Shown here in pieces: positions 16,786 to 43,614 of a stretch of DNA of 64,000 nt. The stretch comes from Cobetia amphilecti (GTDB lineage Bacteria; Pseudomonadota; Gammaproteobacteria; Pseudomonadales; Halomonadaceae), in contig NZ_CP084115.1 of NCBI RefSeq assembly GCF_020217465.1, forward strand, positions 62,001-126,000, read 5' to 3'. How positions within the stretch are numbered: the first letter of the stretch is position 1; every line of letters starts with the position of its first letter. Under the pieces are notes generated by a model, which had not been told where the DNA came from, searched no databases, and was given only the letters and a program-made list of their open reading frames with translations. The position numbers were made by a program, and so were the translations under genes.

Positions 16786-17430
16786 ATGTCATTGGCAATG
16801 TTGCGCACGCGCGCGTCACTTGGTCTCGAGGCACCGGAAGTTCAGGTGGAGGTACACCTTTCCAACGGCTTGCCGGGGCTGTCCATCGTCGGCTTGCCGG
16901 AAGCGGCGGTGAAGGAGAGTCGCGAGCGGGTGCGCAGTGCGCTGCTCAATGCCGGGTTCGAGTTTCCGGCGCGCCGTATCACCCTCAATCTGGCGCCAGC
17001 GGACCTCCCCAAGGAAGGCGGGCGCTTCGATCTGCCCATTGCGCTGGGGATTCTGGTTGCCTCCGGGCAGATACCGGAAGAGGCCGTGGCAGCGATGGAG
17101 TGCCTCGGCGAGCTGGCGCTCGATGGCAGCATCCGTGCCGTGACCGGTGTGCTGCCAGCCGCGCTCTGCTGTCGCAAGGCGGGGCGGACGCTGGTGGTGC
17201 CGCGCGGCAATGCCGACGAGGCGGCACTCGCCGAGGAGTTGGAAGTACTGGCGGTGGGCCATCTGCTGGAGCTGGTGGCTCACCTGCTGGGGCGCGAGCG
17301 CCTCACGCCGCATGTGTGCTCGATCATTCCCCAGGCGCGCCTGCCGGAGCCCGACCTGAGCGAGGTGCGTGGCCAGCATCAGGCACGCAGGGCATTGGAG
17401 ATCGCCGCGGCCGGCGGCCACAATCTGCTA
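16786..17430 (+). pseudogene. comM: comM (yifB) N-terminal fragment
   Basis: These are the first 215 codons of ComM, a hexameric AAA+ helicase that promotes branch migration during natural transformation. The fragment has the complete N-terminal domain (VEVHLSNGLPGLSIVGLPEAA, LNLAPADLPKEGGRFDLPIA) and stops inside ...EIAAAGGHNLL, just before the Walker A loop. The frame then runs into foreign sequence. The start MSLAMLRTRASLGLE fits E. coli YifB, with AGGGAAGG before the ATG. The rest of the gene lies at 22200-22400 and 42916-43614. No ATPase function can come from this piece. Confidence 0.95.
17418..17430. other. attL core of the serine-recombinase element
   Basis: CCACAATCTGCTA at the left comM junction matches CCACAACCTGCTA at 22187-22199 with one mismatch. 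Comparison with the ComM protein (GGHNLLFAGPPGTGKT) puts the junction inside this 13-bp shared core. Confidence 0.7.
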
Positions 17431-17433
17431 GCG

Positions 17434-18261
17434 TTATGTGTCTGGAGACCCATTGTGTGCGCGGAATCTCAGAACAGGGTCTGATAAGGGATTGTCCTTG
17501 AGAGGCCCAAACTCTTGGGACATCCACTCCATCGCAGAGGTGCAGTTTCCGTTACTGATAGATGTAAAAGAAGCTCTATGTCTCTTGGTGTCAGGGGCGG
17601 AGTACCATAGTTTCATTTCACATTTGAGGTCATTGCTCATGCCCGCGCTAAGGTTCAAGTTGCTGATGCTGAAAGGTTCTTCTCCATCGCTGAAATTCCA
17701 ATCAGCCCAGTTGGCTTGGTGAGAGTCATATCTGATGTTGATGGTCTGATTCGAGGAAGGGGGGAGCGGGACGGGAGTCTCTAGACTGAAGTATGCGTGT
17801 CCCTCATGTAACGTGCTGCGTTCGAGGTAAGTGCTCAAGTCAACGGCAGTCAAGATGGTAGGGGCTTCGCCATAGTTATATACGAGAAAGCTGAAGCCTT
17901 CGTCAGTGTATGCAATCACTTGGGCGTCCAGTTTCGGGGAAGCCGGTGGAGGGTTGTTGGCCTTCCATGCAACTACGAATGAGCCTAGGGCTATAATAAT
18001 CGACACAGTTGAGACTGCTACGGAGGGATGAGCTAAGAACCAGTGCCTCTTCTTCTGAGGCTGTTGGCAGCTTGAACACATATAGGCACTCGGCTGAATC
18101 TCCTTCTTGCACCATCTACACGTCCTGCTTTGACTGGGCTGTACACACCATTTGTATGCCTTGTTTCGGCTAAGCAGCTTGCGCCACTTGCGCTCCTTGC
18201 GTTGGCTAGGCTGCTTCAGCTTGCTGTTGAACTGCTTCAGCCGCTTGAGCTTCTCTTCCAT
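17434..18261 (-). CDS. Zinc-ribbon membrane protein of unknown function
   Basis: This is a 275-residue protein I do not recognise. A very basic N-terminus (residues 1-40) is followed by a four-cysteine zinc ribbon, CRWCKKEIQPSAYMCSSCQQ (about 47-66), one membrane helix (VAVSTVSIIIALGSFVVAW, about 80-100), and a soluble domain of about 170 residues on the far side with no known motif. Its stop codon lies only four bases inside the left end of the element. It is likely element-borne cargo. Sensor or defence roles are possible but nothing in the sequence proves either. Confidence 0.7.
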   Translation of the reverse strand: MEEKLKRLKQFNSKLKQPSQRKERKWRKLLSRNKAYKWCVQPSQSRTCRWCKKEIQPSAYMCSSCQQPQKKRHWFLAHPSVAVSTVSIIIALGSFVVAWKANNPPPASPKLDAQVIAYTDEGFSFLVYNYGEAPTILTAVDLSTYLERSTLHEGHAYFSLETPVPLPPSSNQTINIRYDSHQANWADWNFSDGEEPFSISNLNLSAGMSNDLKCEMKLWYSAPDTKRHRASFTSISNGNCTSAMEWMSQEFGPLKDNPLSDPVLRFRAHNGSPDT

Positions 18262-19240
18262 GAGCTTCTTCTTCCCTTGGCGATTCTATGAGCAGCCTTG
18301 TTGTCAGGCTGTCTGGTCTGCTATCCGCTGAGAGCTTCTGTGCGCCTCTCTGAGCTTCACTATGCCATGGCTGGTGTGATTGGGCAGGTAAGGATGATCA
18401 ACTCTCATGGCTCCACACAGCGCCACACAGTGACTGTCGATTCGTGCCCATTCATGGAGAAGAGCGCTTCGCCTCTCCCTCCGTGCCCCTCTGTGTGCCT
18501 CCCTGAGAGCCTCCCTGAGCCAGCGATGGACGTTATCCCCATCATGGATACCCACCCCTGAGAGCGCCTGTGAGAGAAGCCCTGAGACGCCCGTGTGACG
18601 TGAGCTAGCGATTAGTGCCCATTCACGGGGGAAACAAAAGGCCAACCTGTTTGTTACCTATGAGAGAGCAGAGAGATTCCTCTTCTAGTCCATCTGCTAG
18701 TTCACCTCCTTGCTTTCCCTTAGTGCCTCTCTGGGGAGTATCACCCTCCATGTACATACCTCTCATGAGCCTCCCTCAGTGAGTCCCACGGTAGGCGCTT
18801 CGCTTGGCTGACACTCGGCCCAGAGAGAAAGGCTCCATCGAGGGAAGGTGGTATTGGATGATCCCACCACTCACCGGCAACGCACCGACAGCACAGCGAC
18901 AGCCAACAGCCTCGGCTCAAGACGGCCTTGAAGGCTCACCACTCGCGCTCTCTCGCTCAATCGGCAAGGCGAAGGCCCAGGATCTCTCATGGATTTCACA
19001 CAGCGACGCCTCTCAGCCCCAGCTGGCGGGCATCACAGCGCAGCAGCACCAGAAGAACAGCACATCGAACATCTCTAGGTCGGATGCTTACGGACTCACT
19101 CACCGTTGGCACCGGCCTATTTTTTTGGCGCACATCTCTGAGCCGATATCTATGGGGGTGAACGCGCACAGCTACCCCGTTAGCCCCGTCTTCGTTCGTC
19201 GTTAGCCACCCACCCATGGCCACCCACTGTGCTTGTTCAT
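18262..19240. other. Non-coding, repeat-like stretch in the serine-recombinase element
   Basis: About 1 kb without a convincing gene. It is rich in short iterated words, mainly GCCTCYCTGAG variants (for example near 18340, 18498, 18515 and 18768). Open frames at 18298-18561 and 18804-19205 have no ribosome site, and their translations look random. It leads into the hairpin array. Confidence 0.45.
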
Positions 19241-19470
19241 CGCCAGCCTCGTTGCTTCCCTCGCTAACGCGGGATTTCACGCATTACCTACCAGCCAGCC
19301 TCGTTGCTGCTCCTCTTGCTAACTTAGGCTTTTCTAAGTTTCCAGCCAGCCTCGTTGCTCTCACTGCTTCTCGCTTAGTCAGGATATCCTGACTTTGCCG
19401 CCAGCCAGCCTCGCTGCTCCTCTCACTGCCTAACGCGGGACATCCCGCATTCCCTACCAGCCAGCCAAGC
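19241..19470. repeat. Array of conserved 18-bp blocks alternating with different hairpins
   Basis: The block CCAGCCAGCCTCGTTGCT or a close variant recurs at about 19242, 19291, 19342, 19401 and 19457, with spacing of 51-59 bases. Between blocks lie palindromes with different sequences but similar form: TAACGCG..CGCATTA (19265-19286), AACTTAG-GCTTTT-CTAAGTT (19321-19340), AGTCAGGATATCCTGACT (19377-19394) and GCGGGA-CA-TCCCGC (19435-19448). The stems change while pairing is kept, which points to selection on structure. The array lies 200 bases before the resolvase gene. It does not match CRISPR, attC or known res sites. Confidence 0.75.
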
Positions 19471-19600
19471 CGAGAGCCTCGCTACTCCTCGCCGTGTTCC
19501 CTCTGTCCGTCACGTCCGCCAGCCCTGCCGCCAGCTTAGATCAGAAGGTACACCCTGAGAGCCATGCTAGGGAGTTACCATCATCATGGATCAATAGTGT

Positions 19601-19629
19601 TTGACATGCCAATGAGCCACTCATAGTAT
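19601..19629 (+). promoter_or_regulatory. Sigma-70 promoter of the resolvase gene
   Basis: TTGACA, 17 bases, then TAGTAT, 40 bases before the resolvase ATG. The surrounding sequence has an outer inverted pair (GGATCA at 19589 and TGATCC at about 19648), so resolvase binding sites may overlap the promoter. Confidence 0.65.
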
Positions 19630-19669
19630 TGAGCCATAGATTGTGATCCACCAAGGAAGGTAACCAACC

Positions 19670-20296
19670 ATGGCAGCAACCATCGCTTACCTGCGCGTTA
19701 GCACTGACGACCAGACCACAGCCACACAGCGAGCCTCCATCGAGGAGAAGTACAAGATCGATACGTGGTTCACCGATGAGGCAACCTCGGGAGCGATCAA
19801 GGCAGAGCAACGTGAAGGGCTGAGCAAGCTCCTCCAGTACGTGCGCAAGGGTGACACCGTCGTGGTCTATGCGATTGATCGCCTTGGCCGTAACACCATC
19901 GATGTGCTGGAGACAGTCGAAGCGCTGGCCGCGAAGGAAGTCGCTGTGATCTCGACTCGTGAAGGCTTCGATCTCTCAACGCCCATGGGAAAGATGATGC
20001 TGACAATGCTCGCCGGTATGGCTGAGCTGGAGAGGAGCAACATCAAGGCGCGGCAGATGGCAGGGATCGAACGGGCGAGGACTGAGGGTCGAGCGCTGGG
20101 CAGAGAGAAGACCATCGATGACGCTCAGGTGGCTCAGTGGCGTAGTGAGAACAGCGCCAGCATCAAGGCCACAGCAGAGCACTTCGACATCTCAACGGCA
20201 TCAGTGAAGCGTGCCTGTAGAGCAGCTGGTGGAGGAGAAAGCAAAGCCACTATGGCAATGAAGAGCGCCATGGCTTGGCCTTCAGAGAAGCAGTAG
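19670..20296 (+). CDS. Small serine recombinase (resolvase/invertase family)
   Basis: This 208-residue recombinase has the catalytic serine in AYLRVSTDDQTTATQ (residue 12), the active-site stretch VVVYAIDRLGRNTIDVLE, and GKMMLTMLAGMAELERSNIKAR as the E-helix. A helix-turn-helix follows near the end (IKATAEHFDISTASVKRAC). The size and layout fit Tn3-type resolvases and DNA invertases. AAGGAAGG precedes the ATG. A terminator follows. It could resolve multimers of the circular element or act on the nearby repeats; neither is shown. Confidence 0.92.
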   Translation: MAATIAYLRVSTDDQTTATQRASIEEKYKIDTWFTDEATSGAIKAEQREGLSKLLQYVRKGDTVVVYAIDRLGRNTIDVLETVEALAAKEVAVISTREGFDLSTPMGKMMLTMLAGMAELERSNIKARQMAGIERARTEGRALGREKTIDDAQVAQWRSENSASIKATAEHFDISTASVKRACRAAGGGESKATMAMKSAMAWPSEKQ

Positions 20297-20342
20297 GGCA
20301 GCTGTAGAACGGCAGTAGTAGGGCTATCCGCTTAACATCCTG

Positions 20343-20377
20343 GCCATCCTTGTGACGACTCGCAGGGATGGCTTTTT
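20343..20377 (+). terminator. Terminator after resolvase gene
   Basis: GCCATCC pairs with GGATGGC around a loop of about 16 bases, then TTTTT. The gap on to 20517 shows no gene. Confidence 0.75.
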
Positions 20378-20516
20378 GCATCAGGGAACAGCAGTGGGTA
20401 GATGTATTTTTGTGATCACCCACCCCAGAGACAGCGCCTGTAGATATACATGCCCCTCAGTGGATCACACAGGCTTTGTGAGGGGCTGTACGTACGTCGA
20501 TGAGTGTATGTTCGTC

Positions 20517-22127
20517 TTAGGCTAGGTGGCTCTCATGTGGCTTCTGTGAGGCTTCTCTAGGGTCTACCCATTCTTCATCGAGGAAGGTGTAAGTGATCAG
20601 GGTTTCCTCACCGCCTTGCTGCCAGTGAAACTCCAGTAGCCCTGTAGTGAAGTCGACGACCACCTTGGAGAAGCACCCACGCATGAGCGTGTTGATCTGT
20701 GCCTTGTCCTCCCAGTTCTCCTGTACTGCTGCCACTAGCTTCTGTGCTCGTCTCTGAGCCACGTCATTGTTGAAGCTGATCCTTTGTTGCCCCATCTGAT
20801 CGATCTCTTCCTTGAGGGCTTCCTGTTGCTCCTGTAGAGCAGTGAGACGCTCACCGATGGCAGGGTGCTTGCTTGGATCAAGACCATTCTCGATAGAGGT
20901 TACGATGTTATGAATCAGTCCCTCGACACCTTCGAGCTGCCCAGTGAGGTCATCGAAGCGCTCATCAAAGTCGTCGTCACCAACAGGGCAATGAGCAGCG
21001 ATGTAGGAGATGTTTTCTTGAATGAGAGGCTCGACCATGTCCACTCTCACAGCGTTGTAGACGCAGCCAGCTCCTTGCTTGGCTCGGTGGCAGACGAGGT
21101 AGACCCATCCCTTGGCCTTGTTCTTAGTGACCCTGATCATCCTGCTATCACATAGAGGGCAGACAGCTATGCCACCAACGATGTTCTGTACTGGTGACGA
21201 TGAATGTCGTCCTCTCCTCGGGGAAGCACTGGCCTTGAGCATCTGGACAGCCTCGAAGGTCTCCCTGTCGATCACCGCTGGGTAGTAGCCCTCGATTGGC
21301 TCACAGGCTTCCCTGTGCTCCTTCCTGTCGGCACGGCTGGTGAAGGGAGTGAGTGTTCCGTAGGTGGCAGTGTTGGTGAGGATCTTGCTCACGTAGCTGG
21401 TGTGCCACAGCTTCCCTCTACCGAAGATCGGAGCGCCTTCCCTGTTGAGCCTCGCAGCGATGGACTGCTTGCCTGTGCCTTCCAGTGTCCACTTGAAGAT
21501 GTTCCTGACCACCTCGCCACGCTCAGGGATGATGTCGAAGCTCACACCGTCATCGGATGGCTTGAGCCACTGAGGAGCGCGAGAGGTGAGGCGTACAGGC
21601 TTACCCTCAGCGATCATCTTCCTCTTGCTCTCCCACACAGAGCGAAGCCGCTTGGCCTTGGTGGCTGACTCCTCGTTGGCTCGCTGGAAGGTGACTACGG
21701 CCTGTAAGAAAGTCATCGGGTCTTGCGATAAGGTCTCTCTGCTGTAGACCCTCTCATCGAACAAGGTCACGACGTTGACGCCCATCTCACAGATGCTGCT
21801 GAGGACGCTGGCGGCCTTGTGGGGTGACTGTCGGGAGATCCTGTCGAGTGACTCCACTAGCAGGTAGGAGCCTTCAGCGATGATCTCGTCCTCCACAGCA
21901 CGGAGGAAGATCCCTAGTGAGCCTGTCTGTCTGTTCTTGCCTTGGTAAGCGGAGATACCTAGATCGTGGAAGCTGTGATCGTCCAATGTGAGGCCGAGCT
22001 TCTGGGCGTAGTCCTTGGCTAGCTTGGTCTGTCTTCGGAAGCTGTCACCCTTCATCTGCTCTGGTGTGGAGAAGCGAAGGTAGCTGTAAGCCTTGATGGC
22101 TGGGGCTTTGGGCTGCTCGGGGGTCAT
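20517..22127 (-). CDS. Large serine recombinase (integrase)
   Basis: This is a 536-residue large serine integrase. The N-terminal catalytic domain (about 10-160) begins AYSYLRFSTPEQMKGDS with the nucleophile serine, and has LLVESLDRISRQ as the active-site arginine region. A 'recombinase' domain follows (GEVVRNIFKWTLEGTGKQSIAARLN), then a zinc ribbon (CPLCDSRMIRV...CHRAKQGAGC) and a coiled-coil segment (about 400-460). The start at 22127 lies 60 bases from attR, the usual position for such integrases. It most likely inserted this element into comM. Confidence 0.94.
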   Translation of the reverse strand: MTPEQPKAPAIKAYSYLRFSTPEQMKGDSFRRQTKLAKDYAQKLGLTLDDHSFHDLGISAYQGKNRQTGSLGIFLRAVEDEIIAEGSYLLVESLDRISRQSPHKAASVLSSICEMGVNVVTLFDERVYSRETLSQDPMTFLQAVVTFQRANEESATKAKRLRSVWESKRKMIAEGKPVRLTSRAPQWLKPSDDGVSFDIIPERGEVVRNIFKWTLEGTGKQSIAARLNREGAPIFGRGKLWHTSYVSKILTNTATYGTLTPFTSRADRKEHREACEPIEGYYPAVIDRETFEAVQMLKASASPRRGRHSSSPVQNIVGGIAVCPLCDSRMIRVTKNKAKGWVYLVCHRAKQGAGCVYNAVRVDMVEPLIQENISYIAAHCPVGDDDFDERFDDLTGQLEGVEGLIHNIVTSIENGLDPSKHPAIGERLTALQEQQEALKEEIDQMGQQRISFNNDVAQRRAQKLVAAVQENWEDKAQINTLMRGCFSKVVVDFTTGLLEFHWQQGGEETLITYTFLDEEWVDPREASQKPHESHLA

Positions 22128-22186
22128 GACTCAGCTCTGTTACTGCGTGTGTTGATGGCGGCAGCCTACATTGTAGGTCTTCACGT

Positions 22187-22199
22187 CCACAACCTGCTA
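22187..22199. other. attR core of the serine-recombinase element
   Basis: CCACAACCTGCTA, one base different from attL. comM resumes in frame right after it with TTCGCTGGTCCG (F A G P). Confidence 0.7.
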
Positions 22200-22400
22200 T
22201 TCGCTGGTCCGCCGGGCACCGGCAAGACGATGCTGGCCAGTCGCCTGTCCGGCATCTTGCCGCCACTGGGCGAAGGAGAAGCACTGGAAGTCGCGGCGGT
22301 GCGCTCGGTATGTGGTCTGCCGATCATGGAGCGCTGGGGGCAGCGGCCATTCCGTGCCCCGCACCACACGGCCAGTGGGGTCGCGCTGGTGGGAGGTGGC
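22200..22400 (+). pseudogene. comM: comM middle fragment (Walker A region)
   Basis: These 67 codons encode FAGPPGTGKTMLASRLSGILPP through APHHTASGVALVGGG, so they contain the Walker A loop of ComM. The fragment is stranded between the two mobile elements, with no start or stop of its own. It ends in GGT GGC, where the Tn7-like element begins. Confidence 0.95.
22396..22400. repeat. Target site duplication, left copy (GTGGC)
   Basis: GTGGC directly precedes the left end and is repeated exactly after the right end at 42911-42915. Five-base duplications are the rule for Tn7-like transposons. Confidence 0.92.
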
Positions 22401-22480: not shown

Positions 22481-24250
22481 GTGACCGTTTCTCTCAAACA
22501 ATGCAGAACCTTTAGCTTTCAAGATGGCACCCTTAAAGACGAAACTGAGCGCTTGGTCGTTTGGTGGTACGGGCCTATCTTCAAAAATATCCGCTCACAA
22601 AGCGTCCCTAAAATTTATGTATTTTTAAGACCTATTGATCAGGAGAACAAATTAGGAGATGTGATTAAGCGAACGACGGTCTTAACGCATGTCGGGCTAT
22701 TGAGAATCGGCTCCGTCTGGGAAAAGGGCGTGAGCAACTCCCGCATCGCATTTGAGGAGAAAACATTCCCTGTTTCGTTCTCTCCGGGCGGCTGGCGGAT
22801 TGTCTCCTTAGACGACTTACACAAAGCAGGGCGCAGCCTCTATACCTCCTTTCATGAGGCAAGCTATTTACCGCTGGACAGAAAACACAAATCGTACCTG
22901 ATTGAATTTTACCTCCCAGGTGGCAAACATCTGCTCATCCCTTGCACCGAATTTTTTGCACGCGTTTACGGTCGATCATCTGAAATCAAGCGGGTGCTCG
23001 CCACTTACCCTTGGGAAGAAGTAAAAGAGCGTCTTTATCGACCGCTTAACGCGCCTGCATCCCCAGGTACGTGGCCTGTCAAATTTACGTATCGTGTTCA
23101 TAAACACGATGCTATTTTGCTCGCGCATATGCTGTACGATCCCTATGCTGAACAGGCTGCCAGAAGCATTTACTCACAGATTGAAGCCCGCTTCCCCGCA
23201 GATAGGATACTTTTTGAGGTCACGCCTTGGTTCCAGGGCAGCGGGGAAATCTCTGTTTCTGGCGTTCCGATTGATGGTGGCAACACATTTCTAGGATTGC
23301 AGATATTAGGCTGTACGCAGCCCGACGGTGCCACGATCCACCGCGAAAGAGAGAAGTCAACGACAGTACCAGCCACCGATGGCGATGATGCTCCCACTCA
23401 ATTTCCCTATCATCAGCTTCAAGACATCCCCGATGTCATTGACCTGACGGATGATGAAGAGCCCGACCATGGCTCTTCTTGGCTAGACCTTCCTGAGGAC
23501 GAATTCGTTATTTTAGGTAAGCCTCGCGCTGTCTTGGATAAACGATATACTCGAAAAAATGTGCCCGATACACGAGGCGTCCCCGTTCCGGGTGACGAAA
23601 CCATTTTCTCCACTGGGGAGCCACATGGATCAGGAAAAGGGGTCGGACAGGCCTCTATTCATGCTCCTATTACACTGGAATCACAGGGCTTTCTACGTGA
23701 TATGTGGAATGCGCTTCTCTATTTACAATCGGCCTATCCCGCAACGATTCGTGGCGTTAGCTGGTTTACCTTTGAAGACGGCTTTAGCACTTCCCCCGAC
23801 CCTCGGTTGATCAGCCTCGAACCTTTCGAAATAGACGAGGAGGTGAAAACGACAGTCGCTAATTGGGTTTACATTGATACTCAGACCAAGCTACCTCGCG
23901 GGGTGCTCGTCATTAGGGTGCATGTGTTAGATCAAACACTCTATCTCATGGAGATTCAACGACGCCCTCCAAAACCCAGAGCTGGCGGTAGCGAGGAGGC
24001 ATCCAAGCCTCCTTCCTATAAAGGTTTGGTCTTCACGCTGAGCCACCAAGGCAGCTTCGAGCAGTGGTTACGCCAAGTGCTGTCTAACGTGCGGCACGTA
24101 GAAGGTGTTGTCCAAAAACTAGTTCGTCACTGCCCAGGATTCGCCGATACGTTTAAGCACCCTAAATCCAAAAAGGAACAGATACCCTGCGAAGCCTCTG
24201 TGTTAAATGCTTTTAGCAAGGTCAGTATTGGTCGCAGTGACTTAGCGTAG
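22481..24250 (+). CDS. TnsE-like transposition protein
   Basis: This 589-residue protein begins (GTG) 80 bases from the left end of the transposon and reads inward. I see no catalytic motif. Overall layout and several local features resemble Tn7 TnsE: a similar length, an acidic linker in the middle (about 320-345), a basic stretch after it, and a C-terminal region ending ...WLRQVLSNVRHVEGVVQKL..FKHPKSKKE where TnsE has ..WPNSLFDQLYG..VNHPKGLGE. TnsE guides Tn7 to replicating DNA and conjugal plasmids through the beta clamp. Start codon is uncertain because no good ribosome site precedes it. Confidence 0.65.
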   Translation: MTVSLKQCRTFSFQDGTLKDETERLVVWWYGPIFKNIRSQSVPKIYVFLRPIDQENKLGDVIKRTTVLTHVGLLRIGSVWEKGVSNSRIAFEEKTFPVSFSPGGWRIVSLDDLHKAGRSLYTSFHEASYLPLDRKHKSYLIEFYLPGGKHLLIPCTEFFARVYGRSSEIKRVLATYPWEEVKERLYRPLNAPASPGTWPVKFTYRVHKHDAILLAHMLYDPYAEQAARSIYSQIEARFPADRILFEVTPWFQGSGEISVSGVPIDGGNTFLGLQILGCTQPDGATIHREREKSTTVPATDGDDAPTQFPYHQLQDIPDVIDLTDDEEPDHGSSWLDLPEDEFVILGKPRAVLDKRYTRKNVPDTRGVPVPGDETIFSTGEPHGSGKGVGQASIHAPITLESQGFLRDMWNALLYLQSAYPATIRGVSWFTFEDGFSTSPDPRLISLEPFEIDEEVKTTVANWVYIDTQTKLPRGVLVIRVHVLDQTLYLMEIQRRPPKPRAGGSEEASKPPSYKGLVFTLSHQGSFEQWLRQVLSNVRHVEGVVQKLVRHCPGFADTFKHPKSKKEQIPCEASVLNAFSKVSIGRSDLA

Positions 24251-24360: not shown

Positions 24361-25281
24361 TCAGTGACGGGCGAGAATCTTCGCTGCGATGGGCGAAGTG
24401 ATCATTTGAATCACGGCAAAAAAAGCGGCTGGAATCGCGATTTCTGATGGCAAACCGGAAGCAGCGACAAACGCTGCGGCAATGCTGAATTCCTTTTTAC
24501 TGACCGTGAAAAGATAGGTAATCACCTCTTTGCGATCAGAGGTGAGTAACCGTGAGGACATACCTACCAGGTAGCCAATCAAATTGAGGCACAGGGCCGC
24601 GCCCGCAATCACAAACGCATACCAGCCATAGCCAATGATCGTGGTGGCATTCGGCCCGACCACGGCGAGTAGGATCAGCAGATACAGAATTGACCCTATC
24701 CCTGCATACGCTGAATCATGCCGTGCAAAGAAAGCCGAAAACTTTGTCCGCAAGCTGACCCCAATCACGGTAGGAACAAGCACGATTAGTGTTAATTCAA
24801 GAATAATTGAACCAAGCGGCACGTCCAACTGGAGGCCGGTGAGCCATAAAAACAGGAAGGGGACAATGAACGGACATAACGCGGTGTTGACTGCGTTGAA
24901 AACAGCGGCAAGCGCCACATTGCCTTTCGCCATCAGTACCAAAAGAGGAGAGGACACATCCGTCGGCAGAGTGCCGAGCAAGATTTGGCCAGCAGCCAGT
25001 GGGCCGCTTCCAAAAAATAGACGGCCCGTTAGCCACCCGGCAATCGACATCGGCCCATAGACCAGCCCCAATGCCAACAACTGCCGTGACGGCTTACGGA
25101 ACACGATGCGCACTGCATGCGCATCGAATGTGAGGCTGATGATCAACATCAGTAATGCCAGTAATGGCCCAATCGCGAACTCAAGCATTATTCCGGTGGC
25201 CGGAAAGAGTAAGCCTACCCCCGCGACGACGATTACAAACCAGACAAGGTGCGCCTCGACAAAATAAATGAATCTACTCAT
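24361..25281 (-). CDS. BASS-family (bile acid:sodium symporter type) transporter
   Basis: This 306-residue membrane protein has about ten hydrophobic segments. The pattern ILLGTLPTDVSSPLLVLMAKGNVALAAVFNAVNTALCPF and the later FTVSKKEFSIAAAFVAASGLPSEIAIPAAFF fit the BASS superfamily, whose members carry organic anions; the ACR3 arsenite exporters are distant relatives. ACR3's signature cysteine region is not clearly present, so arsenic export should not be assumed. It stands next to the CDF exporter in the metal cargo and is transcribed away from it. Confidence 0.75.
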   Translation of the reverse strand: MSRFIYFVEAHLVWFVIVVAGVGLLFPATGIMLEFAIGPLLALLMLIISLTFDAHAVRIVFRKPSRQLLALGLVYGPMSIAGWLTGRLFFGSGPLAAGQILLGTLPTDVSSPLLVLMAKGNVALAAVFNAVNTALCPFIVPFLFLWLTGLQLDVPLGSIILELTLIVLVPTVIGVSLRTKFSAFFARHDSAYAGIGSILYLLILLAVVGPNATTIIGYGWYAFVIAGAALCLNLIGYLVGMSSRLLTSDRKEVITYLFTVSKKEFSIAAAFVAASGLPSEIAIPAAFFAVIQMITSPIAAKILARH

Positions 25282-25421
25282 GGTGGATTGGACGTTACCG
25301 GTTGAAGTGGATTGAGCCCCGCACCTAAAACATGATCACTTCGGCCCAGCACGCCATGACTTGCTTGGGAGCAAGGGACGCTCTTCCCAATCCAGCGATG
25401 CAAATAGACAATGCTCAAGGG

Positions 25422-25452: not shown

Positions 25453-25485
25453 ACCAAGAACAGATAATTCGAGAGAAGGTAACAG

Positions 25486-34979: not shown

Positions 34980-35163
34980 TGTCATCTCAACGGTCATGAC
35001 ACGCCTTCTGGCACACCGTTGAGCCCTGGCATATAGGTAGAGAGCCATAGCCCCGTCCAAACGGCGGGGCGACATTCGCGCGGAGCCCTCCCCCCACTGT
35101 CACGCTAGTTGGAGTATCAGCGGCTGTTAGACTCTGAACCATATGGGGCGTGATGAGGTTCCG

Positions 35164-35655: not shown

Positions 35656-36716
35656 TCAGCACCACAGATCGCCAGGACGCCATACAGCTGATCGATGAGG
35701 GGCGTGCCCAAGGGGCACGCCTGCAGTCGGCATGCGCTGAACTCGGCATCGGCACCAACACGTATCGCCGCTGGGTGCGGGGCGATCAGGATCGCCGGCC
35801 TCAAGCGGTGCGGCCTGTCCCGCGTCATGCCCTATCGCCGGAAGAGCGTCAGCAGGTGCTGGAGATTTGCCATCGTCCTGAGTTCGCCAGCCTGCCGCCT
35901 GGGCAGATCGTGCCGCGGCTGCTGGACGAAGAAGGCCGCTACGTGGCGTCAGAGTCCAGCTACTACCGCATCCTCCGGGAGCATGGTGAGCAGCACCACC
36001 GTGGCCGCGCTCGCGCTCCACGTCCCAAGGGCGACCCCCAGCGACACCGGGTGACACGCCCCAATGCCTGTTGGAGCTGGGACGTGACCTACTTACCGAC
36101 CCAGGTGCGTGGTCAGTTCTACTACCTGTACATGATCGTCGACATCTACAGTCGCAAGATCGTCGATGCCGAGGTCTTCGACCAGGAGTCCATGGCCAAT
36201 AGCAGCGAGGTAATCCAGCGTGCCGTGCTGCGCGAAGGCTGCATCAACCAGCCACTGGTATTATACGCCGATAATGGCTCCGCCATGAAAGGCTCGACGC
36301 TTCAGGCGACGCTGCAGCGGTTAAATATCACTCCGTCGTACAGCCGCCCTCGGGTCTCCAATGACAACGCCTTCTCAGAGTCGCTGTTCAGGACCTGCAA
36401 GTACCGGCCCGACTACCCGATGGACGGATACGAGAACCTGTCAGCGGCGCAGCAGTGGGTGACGCGCTTCGTGCAGTGGTACAACCACGAACACCGCCAC
36501 AGCGCCATACGGTTCGTCACCCCGGGGGAGCGGCATGCCGGCCTGGATAACGAGGTGCTGGCAAGGCGAGACGCCATCTATGCCGAGGCGAAACGGCAAC
36601 ATCCCGGGCGGTGGAGCAGTGCCACCCGCAACTGGACACCGCGCCGGACAGTCTGGCTGAACCCCGACCAGGAAGACCCGCTGGTTCAACAGGATCAGCG
36701 ATTAGAAGCCGCCTGA
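35652..36716 (+). CDS. IS3-family transposase OrfB (DDE integrase core)
   Basis: This 354-residue protein has an N-terminal helix-turn-helix region and an rve-type integrase core. The DDE triad is seen in CWSWDVTYLPTQVRGQFYYL, VLYADNGSAMKGSTL and VSNDNAFSESLFRTCKYR. The C-terminal YNHEHRHSAIRFVTPGERH is typical for IS3-family OrfB. It looks full length, so the IS may still be active. Confidence 0.9.
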   Translation: MISTTDRQDAIQLIDEGRAQGARLQSACAELGIGTNTYRRWVRGDQDRRPQAVRPVPRHALSPEERQQVLEICHRPEFASLPPGQIVPRLLDEEGRYVASESSYYRILREHGEQHHRGRARAPRPKGDPQRHRVTRPNACWSWDVTYLPTQVRGQFYYLYMIVDIYSRKIVDAEVFDQESMANSSEVIQRAVLREGCINQPLVLYADNGSAMKGSTLQATLQRLNITPSYSRPRVSNDNAFSESLFRTCKYRPDYPMDGYENLSAAQQWVTRFVQWYNHEHRHSAIRFVTPGERHAGLDNEVLARRDAIYAEAKRQHPGRWSSATRNWTPRRTVWLNPDQEDPLVQQDQRLEAA

Positions 36717-36776
36717 TTACAGGTTCCAACAAGCTTGACAGACATCGCCTCCAAGTGACTGCGCGCTATCAGTGTC

Positions 36777-38246
36777 TTAGCACTCAATATCCAGAGGCAG
36801 CCAGTAGGTAACGTCACTCATTACCACCTGTATCCCGTCTGTCGTCCGCTCTACGGTCTGTTGTCGAAGCATTTTCTGCGTTACTTTTGTGTCATGGAAA
36901 TACTCCATGGCAGCAACGATCCATGCCTCCCTCCAGGCCTCTCCTTGATCAGCACACCGGGCCATCGTCATCAGGGTGCGGGCTAGTGTTTCTTTTCGCC
37001 GCTTTCTTGCCCGTTTTACATCCACCCGAGGAGCCAACGTGGTGGCATGTTGGCGATTCAAGAAATTAGTAAACCCCGTCACCGAGGCTGCTTGTCCAGG
37101 CACCGCCTGCAAATAGTTGTCCACATCGCCCTGTTGAGGCAGTCGCTGCCCCTCCCGGTCAGTAGCGAGTAGCAATGCGGCTGCCGCTCTTAGTGCAAGT
37201 CGTGCGGAGGTGTGGGACGTTTTGCCCGCCTCTATACGGGTTTCTAATTGCTGCCAATAAGCATGCAGCGCTTTTTCTGATAAAGAAGCGGACGGCATAG
37301 ACCTGAGACACGCTTTGATACGTCGTTTCTCTGAGTCGATCTTCTTTGCTTGGTGATCCGGCTCTACCCCTTGCTCTTCATGCAGCCATCGCATAAGAAG
37401 TCTTACACGCCGCAACCCCTCCGCCCCGAAGTGATGAAGCAGCTCCGAATAGCTCGGTATCCGTGACCATGCCTGGTCGATCTCAAGGAAGAACGAGAAG
37501 AAATGATTGATCTTGAGGGCAGCCTTATGCGGCCCTGTGGTACGAATCAGCCATTCACCAAATTCCCCAAAGGCCTCACTTAACGCTTGGGTAGTGATAC
37601 CGGCTTGGCCAATGGTGATGCGTTTACGGCATGTTCGCGTCCAATAGCAGGGCTCACAGGCATCGCCTCGACCCGCTGGCATGGGATTGCCACACAATGG
37701 ACAGGCAATTTTCCCTTGCTCATAACAGACGTTGCACAATGCGTCACCGCTGGATGTCATGACCAATAAGCGATGTCGACGACACGCGGAACAGGTACCG
37801 TGATCTGCCGTCGCACAGCGTGGACATAAGCGATGATCATGCCCCATACGCGTCACTCGGGTAAGACGTTGAGAGGGTTCCCCACACTCCTCGCAGGACT
37901 CTGACTCTCTGAAATAGGGAGCGCAGGCGATACAGACAGGGCCGTAGGGAGTGACCTTGCCGATGTTGTAGTCTGAACTGGCTTTTCCACATCGTGCACA
38001 CGGTTTGTCGACTTCGCACTGACGACAGACGGCGTCTGGGTCATTCTTAGGCAAACGAGCTAACTCACCACATCGTGGGCACATCCGCTGCTTAAACTCA
38101 CGAGCATAGCAAGTTGAGCAGTAACCATGCCCCTTATGGCGTCGCCACAATTTGGAGACTTCTCGACCACACTCATCGCAGTCTACCGTTTTGTGTTGCT
38201 TCAAGAGGTTGGCTCCGCTTTCATTCTCCGTTTTAAACGCGCCCAT
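36777..38246 (-). CDS. Zinc-ribbon-rich transposition accessory protein (TniE-like by position)
   Basis: This is a 489-residue protein. The first 215 residues hold about a dozen CxxC pairs (CDECG, CSTC, CPRCG, CRQC, CARCG, CIAC, CEECG, CPRC, CSAC, CNVC, CPLCG, CEPC), giving about six zinc ribbons in a row. The rest is helical and includes a region resembling the core-binding domain of tyrosine recombinases, without catalytic residues. It overlaps tniQ by 46 bases and lies where tniE lies in Tn6022. Function is unknown; DNA or TniQ contact is plausible. Confidence 0.7.
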   Translation of the reverse strand: MGAFKTENESGANLLKQHKTVDCDECGREVSKLWRRHKGHGYCSTCYAREFKQRMCPRCGELARLPKNDPDAVCRQCEVDKPCARCGKASSDYNIGKVTPYGPVCIACAPYFRESESCEECGEPSQRLTRVTRMGHDHRLCPRCATADHGTCSACRRHRLLVMTSSGDALCNVCYEQGKIACPLCGNPMPAGRGDACEPCYWTRTCRKRITIGQAGITTQALSEAFGEFGEWLIRTTGPHKAALKINHFFSFFLEIDQAWSRIPSYSELLHHFGAEGLRRVRLLMRWLHEEQGVEPDHQAKKIDSEKRRIKACLRSMPSASLSEKALHAYWQQLETRIEAGKTSHTSARLALRAAAALLLATDREGQRLPQQGDVDNYLQAVPGQAASVTGFTNFLNRQHATTLAPRVDVKRARKRRKETLARTLMTMARCADQGEAWREAWIVAAMEYFHDTKVTQKMLRQQTVERTTDGIQVVMSDVTYWLPLDIEC

Positions 38247-39289
38247 GAGGCTCTCACTGCGCGTTCCGACATGGGGCGATGAGCCGGTAGAGCACGGCGG
38301 CGATGCGGCCCATGAGGGTGATGAGATAACCGTGATAACAACGGCAACAATATAACGGGGGGTGACTTTCGGGAATCATGAAGCGCACTCGTTTTGACAT
38401 TACAAGCGACCAGAGCGCTAAACGTTTCTTCAAGGCCTATACTTAGCAAACGCTCCACCGCCGCTAATAAAGCACAACGCTCGTTGACAGGCAGAAGCTC
38501 AAACGCCAACCCAGACACAGGCATTCGGCTATCCGTAATCGAAATGCCCAATGTTAGAAGCGCATCTGCGAGGGGTGACGCAGGCCGCCGACTTGCACGC
38601 CGAACAACGCCAACAAAGAAAGTCACCATAGAAAACCAATCGGCGGGTGCGATAGGGGCCTCCCTAAACGTCACGTTGCTTCTTGTTAAAGCACGATCAG
38701 CCATCACTTGGAAACTGAACGCTTCTGGTAAAGGCGACGTGCATACCGCCTTTCTAAAATCGTTATAACACCGGCTGCACTGAGCTAAATGTTGATCTTC
38801 TGCTGACAGGCGATGAGGCTCTATAGGGGCCTTGCATACCGGGCACTCATCTATCAGTTGCACCCCATGAAAGCGGCACCCAGTGTGCCAAGCGAATCGC
38901 CAGTGTCGGCGCAAGTAGGGGGCTGAGTCCTCTGCCAAACACAATGCACAAATCTGTTGTCCTCCATGGCGAGTTCGATTTCGGCTACCAAGGGCTAACA
39001 ACCAGGGCCAAGTCCGCGTTTCCGGTAATGAGTAACCGGCCACTTTCTCACAATCGTCCCGCATCCCAGCTTTCTGAAACTCAGCGGACGATATCCCCGA
39101 TGCATTGACTAATGGGCGCATTCTTACGAGGGGAATTTCCCTATCAATATCCCTTGTCCATATACGCCATGTTGGCCAGATAGCCCCGGTGAGCGACAAA
39201 GGATCACACCCCTGTCTCAACGCCGCCCGTACCAGCCATGAAGAAAGCGACTCTTCAGGCAACAGAGGCACACTCAGCGCCCAAGGCAT
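38201..39289 (-). CDS. tniQ: TniQ/TnsD-family target-site selection protein
   Basis: This 362-residue TniQ protein would recognise the attachment site, here comM. The family start LSVPLLPEESLSSWLVRAAL is present, and the zinc ribbon is ICALCLAEDSAPYLRRHW..HGVQLIDECPVCKAPIEPH followed by CSRC. It overlaps the zinc-ribbon gene on one side and abuts tniB on the other, so all are one transcript. In Tn6022 this position is called tniD. Confidence 0.88.
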   Translation of the reverse strand: MPWALSVPLLPEESLSSWLVRAALRQGCDPLSLTGAIWPTWRIWTRDIDREIPLVRMRPLVNASGISSAEFQKAGMRDDCEKVAGYSLPETRTWPWLLALGSRNRTRHGGQQICALCLAEDSAPYLRRHWRFAWHTGCRFHGVQLIDECPVCKAPIEPHRLSAEDQHLAQCSRCYNDFRKAVCTSPLPEAFSFQVMADRALTRSNVTFREAPIAPADWFSMVTFFVGVVRRASRRPASPLADALLTLGISITDSRMPVSGLAFELLPVNERCALLAAVERLLSIGLEETFSALVACNVKTSALHDSRKSPPVILLPLLSRLSHHPHGPHRRRALPAHRPMSERAVRASWARLKRRMKAEPTS

Positions 39290-40173
39290 TACAGCATCAC
39301 CTCCCTAATGCCACGGGTAGGTCGCACCCATGATTTACTCTGAATAATTTTCTCATCGATACGTTCAGCCCCGGACAAAATAGCGGCATTGGCACACTCA
39401 ATCAGCAGCCGGTGCAGGTCGCCAAAATTGCCGCCAGAGATCGCGTGAAGCTGGGTCGCCAATTGTGGCTCATGCAGTTGGGAAGGATGTTTGAGCGGTA
39501 ATATCTTCTCAAAGCCAGCGAGCAGCTTCTGAAACTCCTGATTGAGCTCCCACTTCGGTAATGCAACCACATCAAAGCGACTCGCATGCTGCGGATCTGA
39601 ATGCAGTACACGCACAGCATCCTGCGTACCCACACCAACGATGGGAATCATTAACTCATTGCATAGGAGCTTAATGGCATTCATCGTTTCGCGCTGCTTG
39701 ACGGCACCACCGGTTAACAGTGAGTGGAACTCATCAATGATCAACAAGCGGGTATGGCAAGCCCGCAGTTGATGAATCACTTGGTAGCGCAGCTTAGGTA
39801 CCGGGTCTGAAGGCCGATAGGGAGCCCAAAAGCTCTCTAACACTGCGATATACAGACTTTTCTCATCGGCACTCGGTGGGGCTTGAGTGACGATCACTGG
39901 TTTCACCGGTTCTACGTCTTCATTCACGTAGCCCTCACCGTACTGTTTACGAAACCGTTGAACGATGGTTGTCTTTCCGTTGTTGGAGTCACCCACGAGC
40001 AAGAGGTTAGGCATACGAGGACGACTAGGCTTCTCCATCAGCCCACGCATGACCTCAATGACACGATTGGCCAATGGATACCCCAACCATCGCGGTTGAT
40101 CCATAAACTCCATTCGCTCTCTAGCGGACAGCCCCAAGACATGACGAAGATCAGGATGAAGGTGTGTGCTCAT
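39289..40173 (-). CDS. tniB: TniB/TnsC-type AAA+ ATPase
   Basis: This 294-residue regulator bridges the target-selection protein and the transposase. Walker A is LLLVGDSNNGKTTIVQRF, Walker B is RLLIIDEFHSLLTG, and sensor-1 lies in ELMIPIVGVGTQDAVRVL. The size matches TniB of Tn6022, shorter than Tn7 TnsC. It overlaps tniA by four bases. Confidence 0.92.
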   Translation of the reverse strand: MSTHLHPDLRHVLGLSARERMEFMDQPRWLGYPLANRVIEVMRGLMEKPSRPRMPNLLLVGDSNNGKTTIVQRFRKQYGEGYVNEDVEPVKPVIVTQAPPSADEKSLYIAVLESFWAPYRPSDPVPKLRYQVIHQLRACHTRLLIIDEFHSLLTGGAVKQRETMNAIKLLCNELMIPIVGVGTQDAVRVLHSDPQHASRFDVVALPKWELNQEFQKLLAGFEKILPLKHPSQLHEPQLATQLHAISGGNFGDLHRLLIECANAAILSGAERIDEKIIQSKSWVRPTRGIREVML

Positions 40174-42098
40174 GATATGTCCCAGTTCACATCGATATCA
40201 CCCGATAAGAGACCATCTTCCTGAGTGGGTGACTCTTGGGGGGCCGCGGTTGAGGGCGCATGTAAAAGGGGATCTGCAGGCGTCACCTTCTTCTCATGCT
40301 CTTTACGTCGTTGTGCCTGACGGCGACTTCGCTTGGTACGTGCTTGCGACTCCTCCACATGAGTTCGCAGTTCACTAATAGCGCGTAGGATTTCAGACTC
40401 ATTGACCGAACTCCTGCCTTCCTGGCGAAGGCGCGCTTTGGCCTGGGCATGCTCCCAAACACTCATCGAGGGGAGGGCGAGATTTGCAAAGGGCACGCGA
40501 AAATAGTGCCCGAGCTCCGGGTCTTTGAACCAAACGACGCTAATGTCACGAGGGTCACGCCGAAACACAAAGGTGCGTTTCTTGCTTGGCGTATCTGGAT
40601 CTTTGGCATTGATCCATGGCCTTAGCGCCTCATCGTAATAGTTCATGCCATCGATGGTCACACCAAAGGTCTGGATCGTGCGCTGAAAGCTGGGCAAAAA
40701 ATCGAGCAATACAGAAAGTCTATCAGCAGGCCGTGGCGCTAAGCCAACTCCCTGCACGTCAGCATTGCCAAACACACCGATTTCCCATTTCCGCACCGGT
40801 GACATACCAATTCCAGAATGAAGACGCTGGTGGTAAACCTTACAAATCAACGTCACCAGCCACTCTTCAAACTCGCTTTTCGTCATGGCCGCGTGCTTCT
40901 CTGGATCGTACCCCTCTTTCTCTTTAATGGAGGAGAAGGTCGTCCCAGGCAGGTTATGGATTTCTTTGAGAATAGAGCCCAGCACCCGCTCAATATGGCC
41001 ACCATAACGAGGCTGCTTAACAGGCCGAAACTCAAGGTTGATCCCATAGGCTAGGCATGAGCGCCGAAACGTCTCTGAGCGAAAATCTGGGCCGTTATCG
41101 ACATGAATCGTGGCGGGTGTGCCCCATACCGGCCACTCAGCCTCCACATTATGCAGTAGCAACCACTCATCTTTAGGAAGCATGGAGTGCGCCACACACA
41201 TGCCGACAGATGTTTCAGAGGGCGGGTCAAACGACAAGTAATACCCCGTGACCACACGGGTAAACACGTCCATGGCCAACGTAATCCATGGGCGACCAAT
41301 CGGCTTGCGATACACGTCATCGACCAAAATAATATCGGCAGGCGTGTGGTCAATCTGCATGACCGCTAGCGGATAGTCAGCATTGGGAAACTTCCCGGCT
41401 GCTGGCTGGAACTTGTTAATGGCTTTGTCTCTAAAACCATGGCCACGCAACCGGTCACGCTCTGGGATATCACGCAGACGAGCACGAACGGTACCAGGGC
41501 TCGGCGGGTCGATGCGCCGTTCATGGCAACGCCGCATCACTTCCTGTACCGCCTTTTGTGCGGACGGACGCTGCAGCGTCAAATACACCTCTTTGATGAC
41601 TTCCTGAATCACTGCCTCGGCATGCGCGGGAATACGCGACTTTCCCTTCTTCCACCCTGGCTTTTGAGGAATCAATGCGAGCACCGAGCCCGTCGCTTTA
41701 TACCGCTTTAACCAACGGTAAATCGTAGCCGTATCAACCCCCGTTTGTTTCGCACGCTCCTCCGCTGCATCCCGCCCCACCGTACGGCGATCCACCAAGG
41801 GCTTAATGATCGAAAAGCGATGCTCGGCCTCTTGCCAATCGGCATCCCCAATCTCGGATATATCCTGATCAGGGAGCACAGACCCGCTATTGAGAGGCGC
41901 TAGTTCTTTGATGCGAAGCGGGCAACTACGCCCGGACTCAACGGCAATGCCAATGACTGTCTCAAAATCAAGCACCTGGGAAATTCGGTAAACGGTGCCA
42001 TCTTTCTGAACCTGCTCACCCACCATGATCTGCAAGTGTTGGCGTGTTTGAGCGACGCCGCTATTGGGCTCAGTTGTGTTGCCACGATGATTATTCAT
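40170..42098 (-). CDS. tniA: TniA/TnsB-type DDE transposase
   Basis: This is the 642-residue transposase that cuts and joins the 3' ends. An N-terminal helix-turn-helix (TIYRWLKRYKATGSVLALIP) binds end repeats. The DDE residues are seen in YPLAVMQIDHTPADIILVDD, ATIHVDNGPDFRSETFRR and GGHIERVLGSILKEIHNLPG. A Mu-type beta-barrel domain follows, then a basic C-terminal tail (TKRSRRQAQRRKEHEKK), as in proteins that contact TniB/TnsC. It overlaps the tnsA-like gene by eight bases. Confidence 0.94.
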   Translation of the reverse strand: MNNHRGNTTEPNSGVAQTRQHLQIMVGEQVQKDGTVYRISQVLDFETVIGIAVESGRSCPLRIKELAPLNSGSVLPDQDISEIGDADWQEAEHRFSIIKPLVDRRTVGRDAAEERAKQTGVDTATIYRWLKRYKATGSVLALIPQKPGWKKGKSRIPAHAEAVIQEVIKEVYLTLQRPSAQKAVQEVMRRCHERRIDPPSPGTVRARLRDIPERDRLRGHGFRDKAINKFQPAAGKFPNADYPLAVMQIDHTPADIILVDDVYRKPIGRPWITLAMDVFTRVVTGYYLSFDPPSETSVGMCVAHSMLPKDEWLLLHNVEAEWPVWGTPATIHVDNGPDFRSETFRRSCLAYGINLEFRPVKQPRYGGHIERVLGSILKEIHNLPGTTFSSIKEKEGYDPEKHAAMTKSEFEEWLVTLICKVYHQRLHSGIGMSPVRKWEIGVFGNADVQGVGLAPRPADRLSVLLDFLPSFQRTIQTFGVTIDGMNYYDEALRPWINAKDPDTPSKKRTFVFRRDPRDISVVWFKDPELGHYFRVPFANLALPSMSVWEHAQAKARLRQEGRSSVNESEILRAISELRTHVEESQARTKRSRRQAQRRKEHEKKVTPADPLLHAPSTAAPQESPTQEDGLLSGDIDVNWDIS

Positions 42099-42786
42099 AA
42101 TCGGGTACCCACACCTCTGATAGAGGACTGAAAGATTGAGCCATATCGCAATCTAGCTGTCGGGTCGCCAGCAGATGCCATAAATGCGCAATCCCCTCTG
42201 CCCGATAAATATCGCCCATGAAGTGCCGAGACAGCAGGTAATCCAAAGTCGCCACCCCCATCTCCCTCACGGTGTTGAGGACTGCCTGGCTTTCGACAGA
42301 AGGAAACACCATCCGCTTATAGCGCGCTAGGAAGGTAATGTTGTCCAAGGTCTTATCACGAATGCGGCTTTCATCATGAATGCGAAACGCCCAGCCCTCG
42401 TTGTTGGCATGCCGTATCGCCGCCTTCCATTTAGGCGACCATTCACGCCAATGTGCTTGCCACTTTTCCCGTGGTTTGACCTCCACCAGGAGAGGTTTTG
42501 GGTAATCCCTGTAATGACGGTTACCGAGACGGTAATACACCAAATAGTCAGGTGTGTAGGTGTAGCGCCTACCGGTCACGGGATGATGAAACGGGATCTC
42601 GCACGGCTGGGAAATCACACCAAGGACGCTCACATCAAAGTCAGCCTTGATGAGGAAATCACGTTCGAGCGTCGACTCGAACGCAATAGACTCCTCCCCG
42701 CGAAAGGCATAGTAGCCAGACACACTTCGTCGCGTAGGGCCGATTTTACGAACGGATGTAGGCAGTGGCATGGGCAGTCGCACCAA
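42091..42786 (-). CDS. TnsA-like endonuclease (TniC)
   Basis: This 231-residue restriction-type endonuclease cuts the 5' ends of the transposon. The catalytic residues appear in AFESTLERDFL (Glu), YTPDYLVYY (Asp) and KPLLVEVKPREKW (ExK). A winged-helix C-terminal domain follows. Its presence predicts cut-and-paste movement rather than replicative cointegrates. It is the first gene of the transposition operon, 125 bases from the right end. In Tn6022 it is named tniC. Confidence 0.9.
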   Translation of the reverse strand: MVRLPMPLPTSVRKIGPTRRSVSGYYAFRGEESIAFESTLERDFLIKADFDVSVLGVISQPCEIPFHHPVTGRRYTYTPDYLVYYRLGNRHYRDYPKPLLVEVKPREKWQAHWREWSPKWKAAIRHANNEGWAFRIHDESRIRDKTLDNITFLARYKRMVFPSVESQAVLNTVREMGVATLDYLLSRHFMGDIYRAEGIAHLWHLLATRQLDCDMAQSFSPLSEVWVPDYE

Positions 42787-42807
42787 ATGTTGAATAAAAC
42801 AAGGCCT

Positions 42808-42910
42808 GTCGCATCAATTGCTATTAATTCTGTCGCACTCAATCCTGTACAGACTACCATAATAGCCCGATATTACGCGCTGAGGGTCGCATCAATTGCT
42901 GAAAATGACA
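42808..42910. repeat. Right end: terminal inverted repeat and two more TniA-type sites
   Basis: GTCGCATCAATTGCT occurs at 42886-42900 within the terminal repeat and again exactly at 42808-42822. A weaker copy, GTCGCACTCAATCCTG, lies at 42832-42847. The right end therefore has more sites than the left, the usual asymmetry of Tn7-like ends. Confidence 0.85.
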
Positions 42911-42915
42911 GTGGC
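42911..42915. repeat. Target site duplication, right copy (GTGGC)
   Basis: Exact match to 22396-22400. Deleting one copy with the transposon restores GGA GGT GGC TCC AAG in comM. Confidence 0.92.
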
Positions 42916-43614
42916 TCCAAGCCGCGTCCGGGCGAGGTGTCGCTGGCGCATCATGGCGTGCTGTTTCTGGATGAGCTGGCGGAGTTCGACCGTGGCGTGC
43001 TGGAAGTGATGCGCGAGCCGCTGGAGAGTGGCCGTATCCTGATCTCGCGCGCCAGCCATCAACGCCGTTTCCCGGCGCGCTTCCAGCTGGTCGCGGCGAT
43101 GAATCCCTGCCCCTGCGGCTACCTCGGTGACAGTCGCCGCAATTGCAGCTGCACCCCGGCGCAGATCCAGCGCTATCAGGCGCGTCTGTCCGGCCCGTTG
43201 CTGGACCGCATCGACCTGCAGGTCGAGGTGCCGGGCCTGCCCGCCGAGGAGCTGACATCCGCCACTCCCGGCGAGGCCTCGGCCGGCGTGCGCGAACGAG
43301 TGCTGGCCGCTCGCGCGCGCCAATTGGCACGCGGCGGCCTGAATGCTCATCTGGATACCCACGCGCTGGAAGCCGCCTGTCAGCTGGAAGACGGCGAGCG
43401 CCAGTGGTTGGCCGGCGTACTGTCACGCCTCAATCTCTCGGCGCGCGCCTATCACCGGGTGCTGCGTGTCGCGCTGACACTCAGTGATCTGATCGACCAG
43501 GACGGTGTGCAGCGGCCACAGCTGATGGAGGCCATCGGCTATCGCCAGCTGGACCGCATGATGGGCAGGGACCCGGCTCGCCTGGGCGCCAGTTCCCAGC
43601 AGCGCAGCGCCTGA
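42916..43614 (+). pseudogene. comM: comM C-terminal fragment
   Basis: These are the last 232 codons of ComM plus the stop. They contain Walker B (GVLFLDELAEFDR), the sensor region FQLVAAMNPCPCGYLG with the zinc cysteines CPCGY..NCSCTP, the arginine-finger part GPLLDRIDLQVEVPG, and the C-terminal Mg-chelatase-like helical domain. It is not translated from its own start as far as I can see. With the other two fragments it gives about 514 residues, the normal ComM length. Confidence 0.95.

Follow-up and report, generated by a model that had tools for sequence, protein, structure and literature searches.

Two unrelated mobile elements at neighbouring sites split comM of Cobetia amphilecti

From the comparisons presented below, we propose with high confidence that comM of Cobetia amphilecti, a competence gene that aids the uptake of foreign DNA, was inactivated by two independent, recent and site-specific insertions. 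The stretch analysed, hereafter the window, comprises 64,000 nucleotides (contig NZ_CP084115.1, positions 62,001 to 126,000 of the forward strand), and its genome is G000 in the comparisons. In this model, the large serine recombinase (LSR) of a 4.8-kb element would have recombined the attP of this element with a CT dinucleotide in the Leu215 codon of comM. A Tn6022-like Tn7 element would have entered at codon 282, where it duplicated 5 bp and was probably guided by a TnsF/TniQ pair that would read the Walker B region of the gene. A sequence-only reading of this DNA had already held that comM is broken twice by two unrelated elements, and this is borne out by LSR domains in one element, TnsA, TnsB, TnsC and TniQ in the other, and separate borders for each.

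Searched against the window by tblastn, the intact ComM of G005 (514 aa), a genome of the same genus, matches three pieces of the gene:

16786-17430, + strand: comM N-terminal piece, codons 1-215; 100% residue identity to ComM of G005 and a match to the ChlI domain
22197-22400, + strand: comM middle piece counted from the crossover, codons 215-282, with Walker A
42911-43614, + strand: comM C-terminal piece, with codon 283 from 42916, through the stop codon; includes the right target duplication at 42911

In the tblastn alignment, the middle piece covers codons 212-282 (22188-22400) with 100% identity to G005, while the C-terminal match ends at 43611 and covers codons 283-514 with 96.3% identity over a stretch that includes nine residues of the Tn7-like end. 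The pieces, aligned separately and unjoined, together span codons 1-514 of G005 without a gap; all three domains of ComM (TIGR00368) are present in order and the length equals that of intact relatives. Thus, the earlier proposal that the pieces make up a ComM of about 514 residues agrees with the separate alignments, and the bounds it gave for the middle piece (22200-22400) are close to ours. Its description of this piece as a relic is too strong, because the piece has no amino-acid change relative to the intact copy. Codons 212-215 are present twice, in the N-terminal and in the middle piece, presumably because the attP of the element carries the same core. GPPGTGKT, which we take to be Walker A, occupies codons 218-225, and LFLDEL, the region of which we take to be Walker B, begins at codon 298. 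The LSR insertion at codon 215 lies directly before Walker A, as had been suggested for both elements; the Tn7-like insertion at codon 282, by contrast, lies 57 codons past the last codon of Walker A and is 16 codons short of LFLDEL. The two sites are 67 codons apart.

The following features of the first element bear on its insertion:

17430-22198: LSR integrative element of about 4.77 kb, flanked by attL and attR; identical borders in G002 and G004
17428-17429, + strand: putative attL crossover dinucleotide CT within the Leu215 codon, placed by the attP dyad centre and the base switch after CT
20517-22127, - strand: large serine recombinase (integrase) with PF00239, PF07508 and PF13408; PHROG integrase at 8.5e-73

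The integrase has the Resolvase, Recombinase and zinc-ribbon domains of an LSR; a profile search of the PDB with it gave no useful match. At the left border, the first approximately ten bases past CTGCT are identical in G000, G002 and G004, and at the right border, the base following CT is A, T or G, as host sequence would give. In the inferred attP, the best dyad is centred between the C and the T of CT in all four elements tested, of the nine at codon 215, with scores of 13-16 of 24, where the next centre reaches 10-11. The att sequences of three of these elements are almost the same; the remaining element, from G218, differs in its arms and encodes an integrase with only 38% identity to that of the window. 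Together, the dyad centre and the base switch at the border suggest that the crossover most likely sits in the Leu215 codon, before Walker A at codon 218. A dyad in attB at the crossover centre, suspected by eye, was not found by script in the intact genes of G005 and G001. The borders and the crossover zone can be read directly, and we infer from the sequence that the LSR catalysed the insertion.

The second element is organised as follows:

22401-42910: Tn6022-like Tn7 element, 20.5 kb, with ends TGTCATTT and AAATGACA as inverted terminal repeats
22396-22400: left 5-bp target duplication GTGGC
42911-42915: right 5-bp target duplication GTGGC
42091-42786, - strand: TnsA endonuclease, PF08722 and PF08721
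40170-42098, - strand: TnsB transposase, Mu-transpos_C and rve
39289-40173, - strand: TnsC/TniB ATPase, PF05621 at 4.9e-72
38201-39289, - strand: TniQ, 361 aa, PF06527 at 1.2e-18
36777-38246, - strand: TnsF candidate, 488 aa, with many CxxC motifs; adjoins tniQ
22481-24250, + strand: TnsE-like candidate, 589 aa, from its position, opposite strand and distant similarity

Its insertion at codon 282 duplicated 5 bp. The element has TnsA, TnsB, TnsC and a short TniQ in order, inverted repeats, and an insertion in comM near Walker B, and the kinship to Tn6022 that the sequence-only reading had proposed is upheld. The 5-bp duplication is a likeness to Tn6022, and AbaR insertions have one as well. 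The Tn6022 family (AbaR backbone, TnsABC-TniQ-TnsF-TnsE) likewise sits in comM near Walker B, and the available text of Faure 2023 (PMC10293859) describes a TniQ of 369 aa, a TnsF of 498 aa with zinc fingers that reads the Walker B stretch of comM, and a TnsE on the opposite strand. The layout in the window is similar: TniQ falls in the same size class (about 360-370 aa) and adjoins a protein of about 490-500 aa that is putatively rich in zinc fingers, and an opposite-strand open reading frame (ORF) occupies the place of TnsE. By analogy with Tn6022 of Acinetobacter, the putative TnsF/TniQ pair probably steers insertion to the Walker B region. The differences are that the element in the window carries metal-transport cargo, with no drug-resistance gene noticed among its Pfam matches, and that its TnsF and TnsE candidates are only 36-39% (over 95-96% of their length) and about 26-27% (over 93-96%) identical to ORFs of Acinetobacter plasmids. 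The TnsF candidate has no Pfam match; its position, length and CxxC motifs are compatible with TnsF, which is characterised by zinc fingers and an XerH-like fold. For both candidates, phmmer against the PDB returned nothing useful and single-sequence structure predictions were unusable (pLDDT 37 for TnsF, 32 for TnsE).

To place the two insertions in context, we use a sample of 275 genomes of the family. Besides the window, 41 genomes with a split or weak comM were followed up, i.e. those with a best comM match weaker than 1e-150, plus G119; G174, G236 and G259 (1e-163 to 1e-179, not split-looking) lay outside this set. Insertions were resolved in 33 of the 41, making 34 genomes with the window, and number 37 at five sites. 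At codon 215, nine genomes have an LSR element (the LSR of the window, seven that are 60-96% identical to it and one at 38%), and at codon 282, 18 genomes have a Tn7-like element. Codons 317-321 contain another LSR group in seven genomes, and codons 336-338 a third LSR group in two. In one genome, G119 (L070), a prophage that encodes a tyrosine integrase occupies codons 58-64, with a duplicated stretch coding FDFPNTR. These counts leave aside G279 and G286 (probably a codon-282 insertion, junctions unread) and G134, G139, G140, G245, G253 and G288 (broken or partial comM). All the junctions of the window are found again in other genomes, so that chance can hardly account for them.

Among the 18 genomes with codon 282 filled, in which both junctions were read, the 5-bp pair is identical in 17 (one base off in G242), and the right end contains a TnsA match in every one of the 18. 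In G226 and G185, TniQ is only about 30% identical and the element ends differ too, which points to a second Tn7-like lineage at the same position. Tn6022-like transposase genes also lie away from comM in G219, G232, G284 and G242 (L101-L104), with comM intact in G219, G232 and G284; perhaps they reflect a second target route.

Within the genus, six genomes could be compared: comM is intact in G001, G003 and G005, is interrupted only by the LSR element in G002 and G004, and is doubly broken in the window. In the five other genomes there is no TniQ match, and 16 genomes of other genera have the Tn7-like element without a codon-215 element. The position of the middle piece between two mobile elements would also be expected if a single composite island with an internal comM fragment had inserted once. 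However, the single-insertion genomes speak strongly against such an island, namely the LSR-only genes of G002 and G004 and 15 other genomes in which a Tn7-like element at codon 282 is the sole resolved insertion in comM; so do the separate att and duplication borders and the contiguous codons of the pieces. We therefore consider a composite island very improbable and favour two separate insertions.

Double insertions are not confined to the window. In G291, codons 215 and 282 are both filled, i.e. the same pair as in the window, and in G167 codons 282 and 336 are filled. Outside the family, Geomonas limicola (L123, L150, L151) has a codon-215 LSR element together with an element containing a different LSR-like ORF at about codon 345. 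These genomes, and the fact that the host genome is a single contig of 4.16 Mb that is 99.99% complete, argue against an assembly error joining unrelated contigs; we found no support for such an error and regard it as extremely improbable. Enrichment of doubles is unsupported: when the four site labels (9, 18, 7 and 2 genomes; codon-58 prophage excluded) were shuffled over the 275 genomes, 1.47 doubles were expected and three were observed in the family (P = 0.17), giving no clear attraction or exclusion. Thus, three family doubles are about what independent insertion gives. Two candidates were kept out of the doubles. In G240, comM starts at codon 211, the sequence upstream is unlike an LSR attR and the N-terminal part was not found; this genome is counted once, at codon 336. 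In G299 (Comamonadaceae; L112, L148, L149), comM is split at codon 215 and perhaps near codon 60; the codon-60 pieces are on different contigs and no element was recognised there.

Both insertions look recent from the substitutions in the pieces. Compared with comM of G005, the window has 54 synonymous and no nonsynonymous differences in 494 codons, and compared with G004, 36 synonymous and three nonsynonymous; junction codons 214-216 and the last 17 codons (498-514) were left out of the count. Under neutrality, approximately 68-73% of changes would be nonsynonymous. The lack of a nonsynonymous excess indicates that selection acted on comM during almost the whole period since the genomes diverged. 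Consequently, the LSR insertions in the window and in G004 do not go back to a single ancient event, unless the gene had meanwhile been restored by excision or recombination. In addition, the LSR end is 96.7% identical between the window and G002 (1.9 kb) and 97.0% between G002 and G004 (2.7 kb), whereas comM of these hosts is only 80-81% identical, which argues that this part of the element moved between lineages and entered the same site repeatedly. The Tn7-like element, for its part, matches the copies in G250 and G262, of another genus, at 96% over 12.7 kb and 93-95% over 6.2 kb, and those in G289 and G228 at 89-92%.

The same data bear on the idea that the LSR element is a reversible switch, which would excise to restore comM in some cells until the Tn7-like insertion locks the gene off. 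Prophages in comK are a precedent for such a switch. Broken comM shows no excess of amino-acid changes in G000, G002 and G004, and the integrase frame is open and free of stops in all three; recent insertion explains these data as well. Moreover, the second insertion would block restoration in the window, the N-terminal comM piece of G223 itself falls in two matches (decay or sequencing error in this 89%-complete genome), and no excision factor was identified, with none sought. On balance, we find a switch unlikely. We give equally little credence to its generalisation, in which LSR elements would act as a reversible lock on transformation that is near-neutral through excision, so that comM stays under purifying selection though often split, and in which a Tn7-like element would make the lock permanent. 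Two recent and independent insertions remain our preferred reading.

As for their order, the LSR element probably inserted before the Tn7-like element. The sequence-only reading had looked to single-insertion genomes for the order, and these settle it in part: two of the five other genomes of the genus have the LSR element alone and none the Tn7-like element, but both insertions look recent. The reverse order, with the Tn7-like element first, is a possible but clearly less likely alternative. Both insertions look equally fresh, either target would have been whole after the other insertion because the sites are 67 codons apart, and the Tn7-like element is common at codon 282 in other genera; within the genus, however, the LSR element is present in three of six genomes and the Tn7-like element in one.

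Several observations weigh against the model or limit it. The order rests on six genomes and cannot be proven from them. In four of the 18 codon-282 genomes (G228, G230, G246 and G185), the comM halves are on separate contigs. TnsF and TnsE are candidate names, given by the position and length of the two genes, by motifs and by remote sequence resemblance. Between the window and G002, the LSR element has 89-92% identity in its middle and does not align at its left end; judged by these alignments, the element did not move as one unchanged block, and its cargo changed. The comM tail omitted from the codon count (498-514) has two amino-acid differences from G005. Finally, recombination with intact copies could be an alternative cause of the fresh state of the pieces.

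The association of LSRs with comM extends beyond these insertions. In the family, 23 genomes have an LSR match, which adjoins a comM piece in 18, and comM is intact in the other five. A scan of wider genome contigs with an LSR alignment identified 39 loci, four of them in the family (G141, G090, G223 and G291); a comM piece was present in the flanks read at 29 of the 39 and at 25 of the 35 outside the family. The loci with such a piece belong to Pseudomonadota and to records whose titles name Gemmatimonadetes, Planctomycetota, Prosthecobacter and Geomonas. For 27 of the 35 outside loci, the whole genome was searched: comM is split near profile position 215 in 23, in some with the pieces on different contigs, and intact in four. 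A single ancestry of all comM-targeting LSRs was considered and rejected, as the codon-317 group does not cluster with the codon-215 group; a midpoint-rooted tree built from 49 LSRs, with 13 open forks and a number of long branches, places it in a well-supported group with the LSRs of G209, G200 and G094, in which comM is intact.

The remaining features of the two elements are:

17434-18261, - strand: cargo ORF at the left end of the LSR element, without Pfam, PHROGs or NCBIfam match
19242-19480: array of imperfect repeats, each of about 55 bp, in which the small palindromes vary
19670-20296, + strand: small serine recombinase (resolvase/invertase), PF00239 at 3.3e-41
24361-34979: cargo of the Tn7-like element, with SBF-like transporter, cation efflux, DsbA-like, M23 peptidase, ZIP pieces, ZntA-like P-type ATPase, signal peptidase II, Lnt-like acyltransferase and YkuD transpeptidase
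35080-36747: IS3-type insertion inside the Tn7-like element, from HTH_Tnp_1 and rve domains and an alignment gap

The two recombinases are the only matches among five scanned ORFs of the LSR element (Pfam, for some also PHROGs and NCBIfam), with no structural, replication or transfer genes. The small serine recombinase is matched in eight of the nine codon-215 elements, two of them weakly (27-35%), and not in G015. Despite the approximately 97% identity of the LSR end in both genomes, the cargo ORF shows 48% identity in G004 and is unmatched in G002, a pattern of cargo turnover at one end of the element. In the repeat array, a near-constant GCCAGCCTCGTTGCT is accompanied by small palindromes that differ from unit to unit; the matching regions in G002 and G004 have partly different palindromes, with fewer units in G004. 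The cargo of the Tn7-like element consists of metal-transport and envelope genes, among which the ZIP transporter gene (28241-29074) is probably broken, with two ORFs matching different parts of the family profile. The insertion at 35080-36747 is missing from the G250 and G262 copies; its gene pair suggests the IS3 family name.

That comM is a landing pad, as the sequence-only reading had suggested, holds true and is already published for Tn6022, Tsy and LSRs (Faure 2023, PMC10293859; Durrant 2022, PMC10083194). In the available text of the former, Tn6022 and Tsy both target comM; Tsy is an unrelated transposon with a tyrosine recombinase, and no tyrosine recombinase was found among the scanned ORFs of the two elements in the window. 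In that of the latter, 12.4% of predicted site-specific LSRs target a gene with the annotation magnesium chelatase/ATP-dependent protease, and LSR targets show an enrichment of competence genes. The kind of integrase and, by annotation, the target gene are the same as here, and the text at hand does not give codon positions or double insertions. Similarly, phage WO of Wolbachia uses the magnesium chelatase gene, with the serine recombinase sr1WO splitting the same gene family by annotation, although WO is a prophage and the element in the window is 4.8 kb (PMC9203015, in the portion available). Of the strains of Acinetobacter baumannii, 22% have a comM that AbaR or another element has inactivated, and the accessible part of that report describes diverse inactivating elements without resolving two independent insertions in one gene (PMC11472951). 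Narrow literature searches returned no paper on comM and a serine integrase, or on comM, two insertions and Tn7. To this, the present analysis adds the resolved doubles, the shared crossover position and the evidence for recency.

Loss of ComM lowers transformation in A. baumannii, according to the available parts of two reports (PMC11472951; PMC8787482), and by analogy with other species it probably lowers recombination of foreign DNA during transformation here, in a host that has ComEC and DprA matches above family cut-offs. Perhaps comM draws many integrases by combining highly conserved ATPase codons with a tolerated loss. In this one gene, neighbouring conserved codons of an ATPase have become insertion sites for unrelated mobile elements, repeatedly and, as it appears, recently. 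With intact, singly and doubly broken comM in one genus, the cost of losing ComM, and the question of whether an integrase ever restores the gene, become directly testable.

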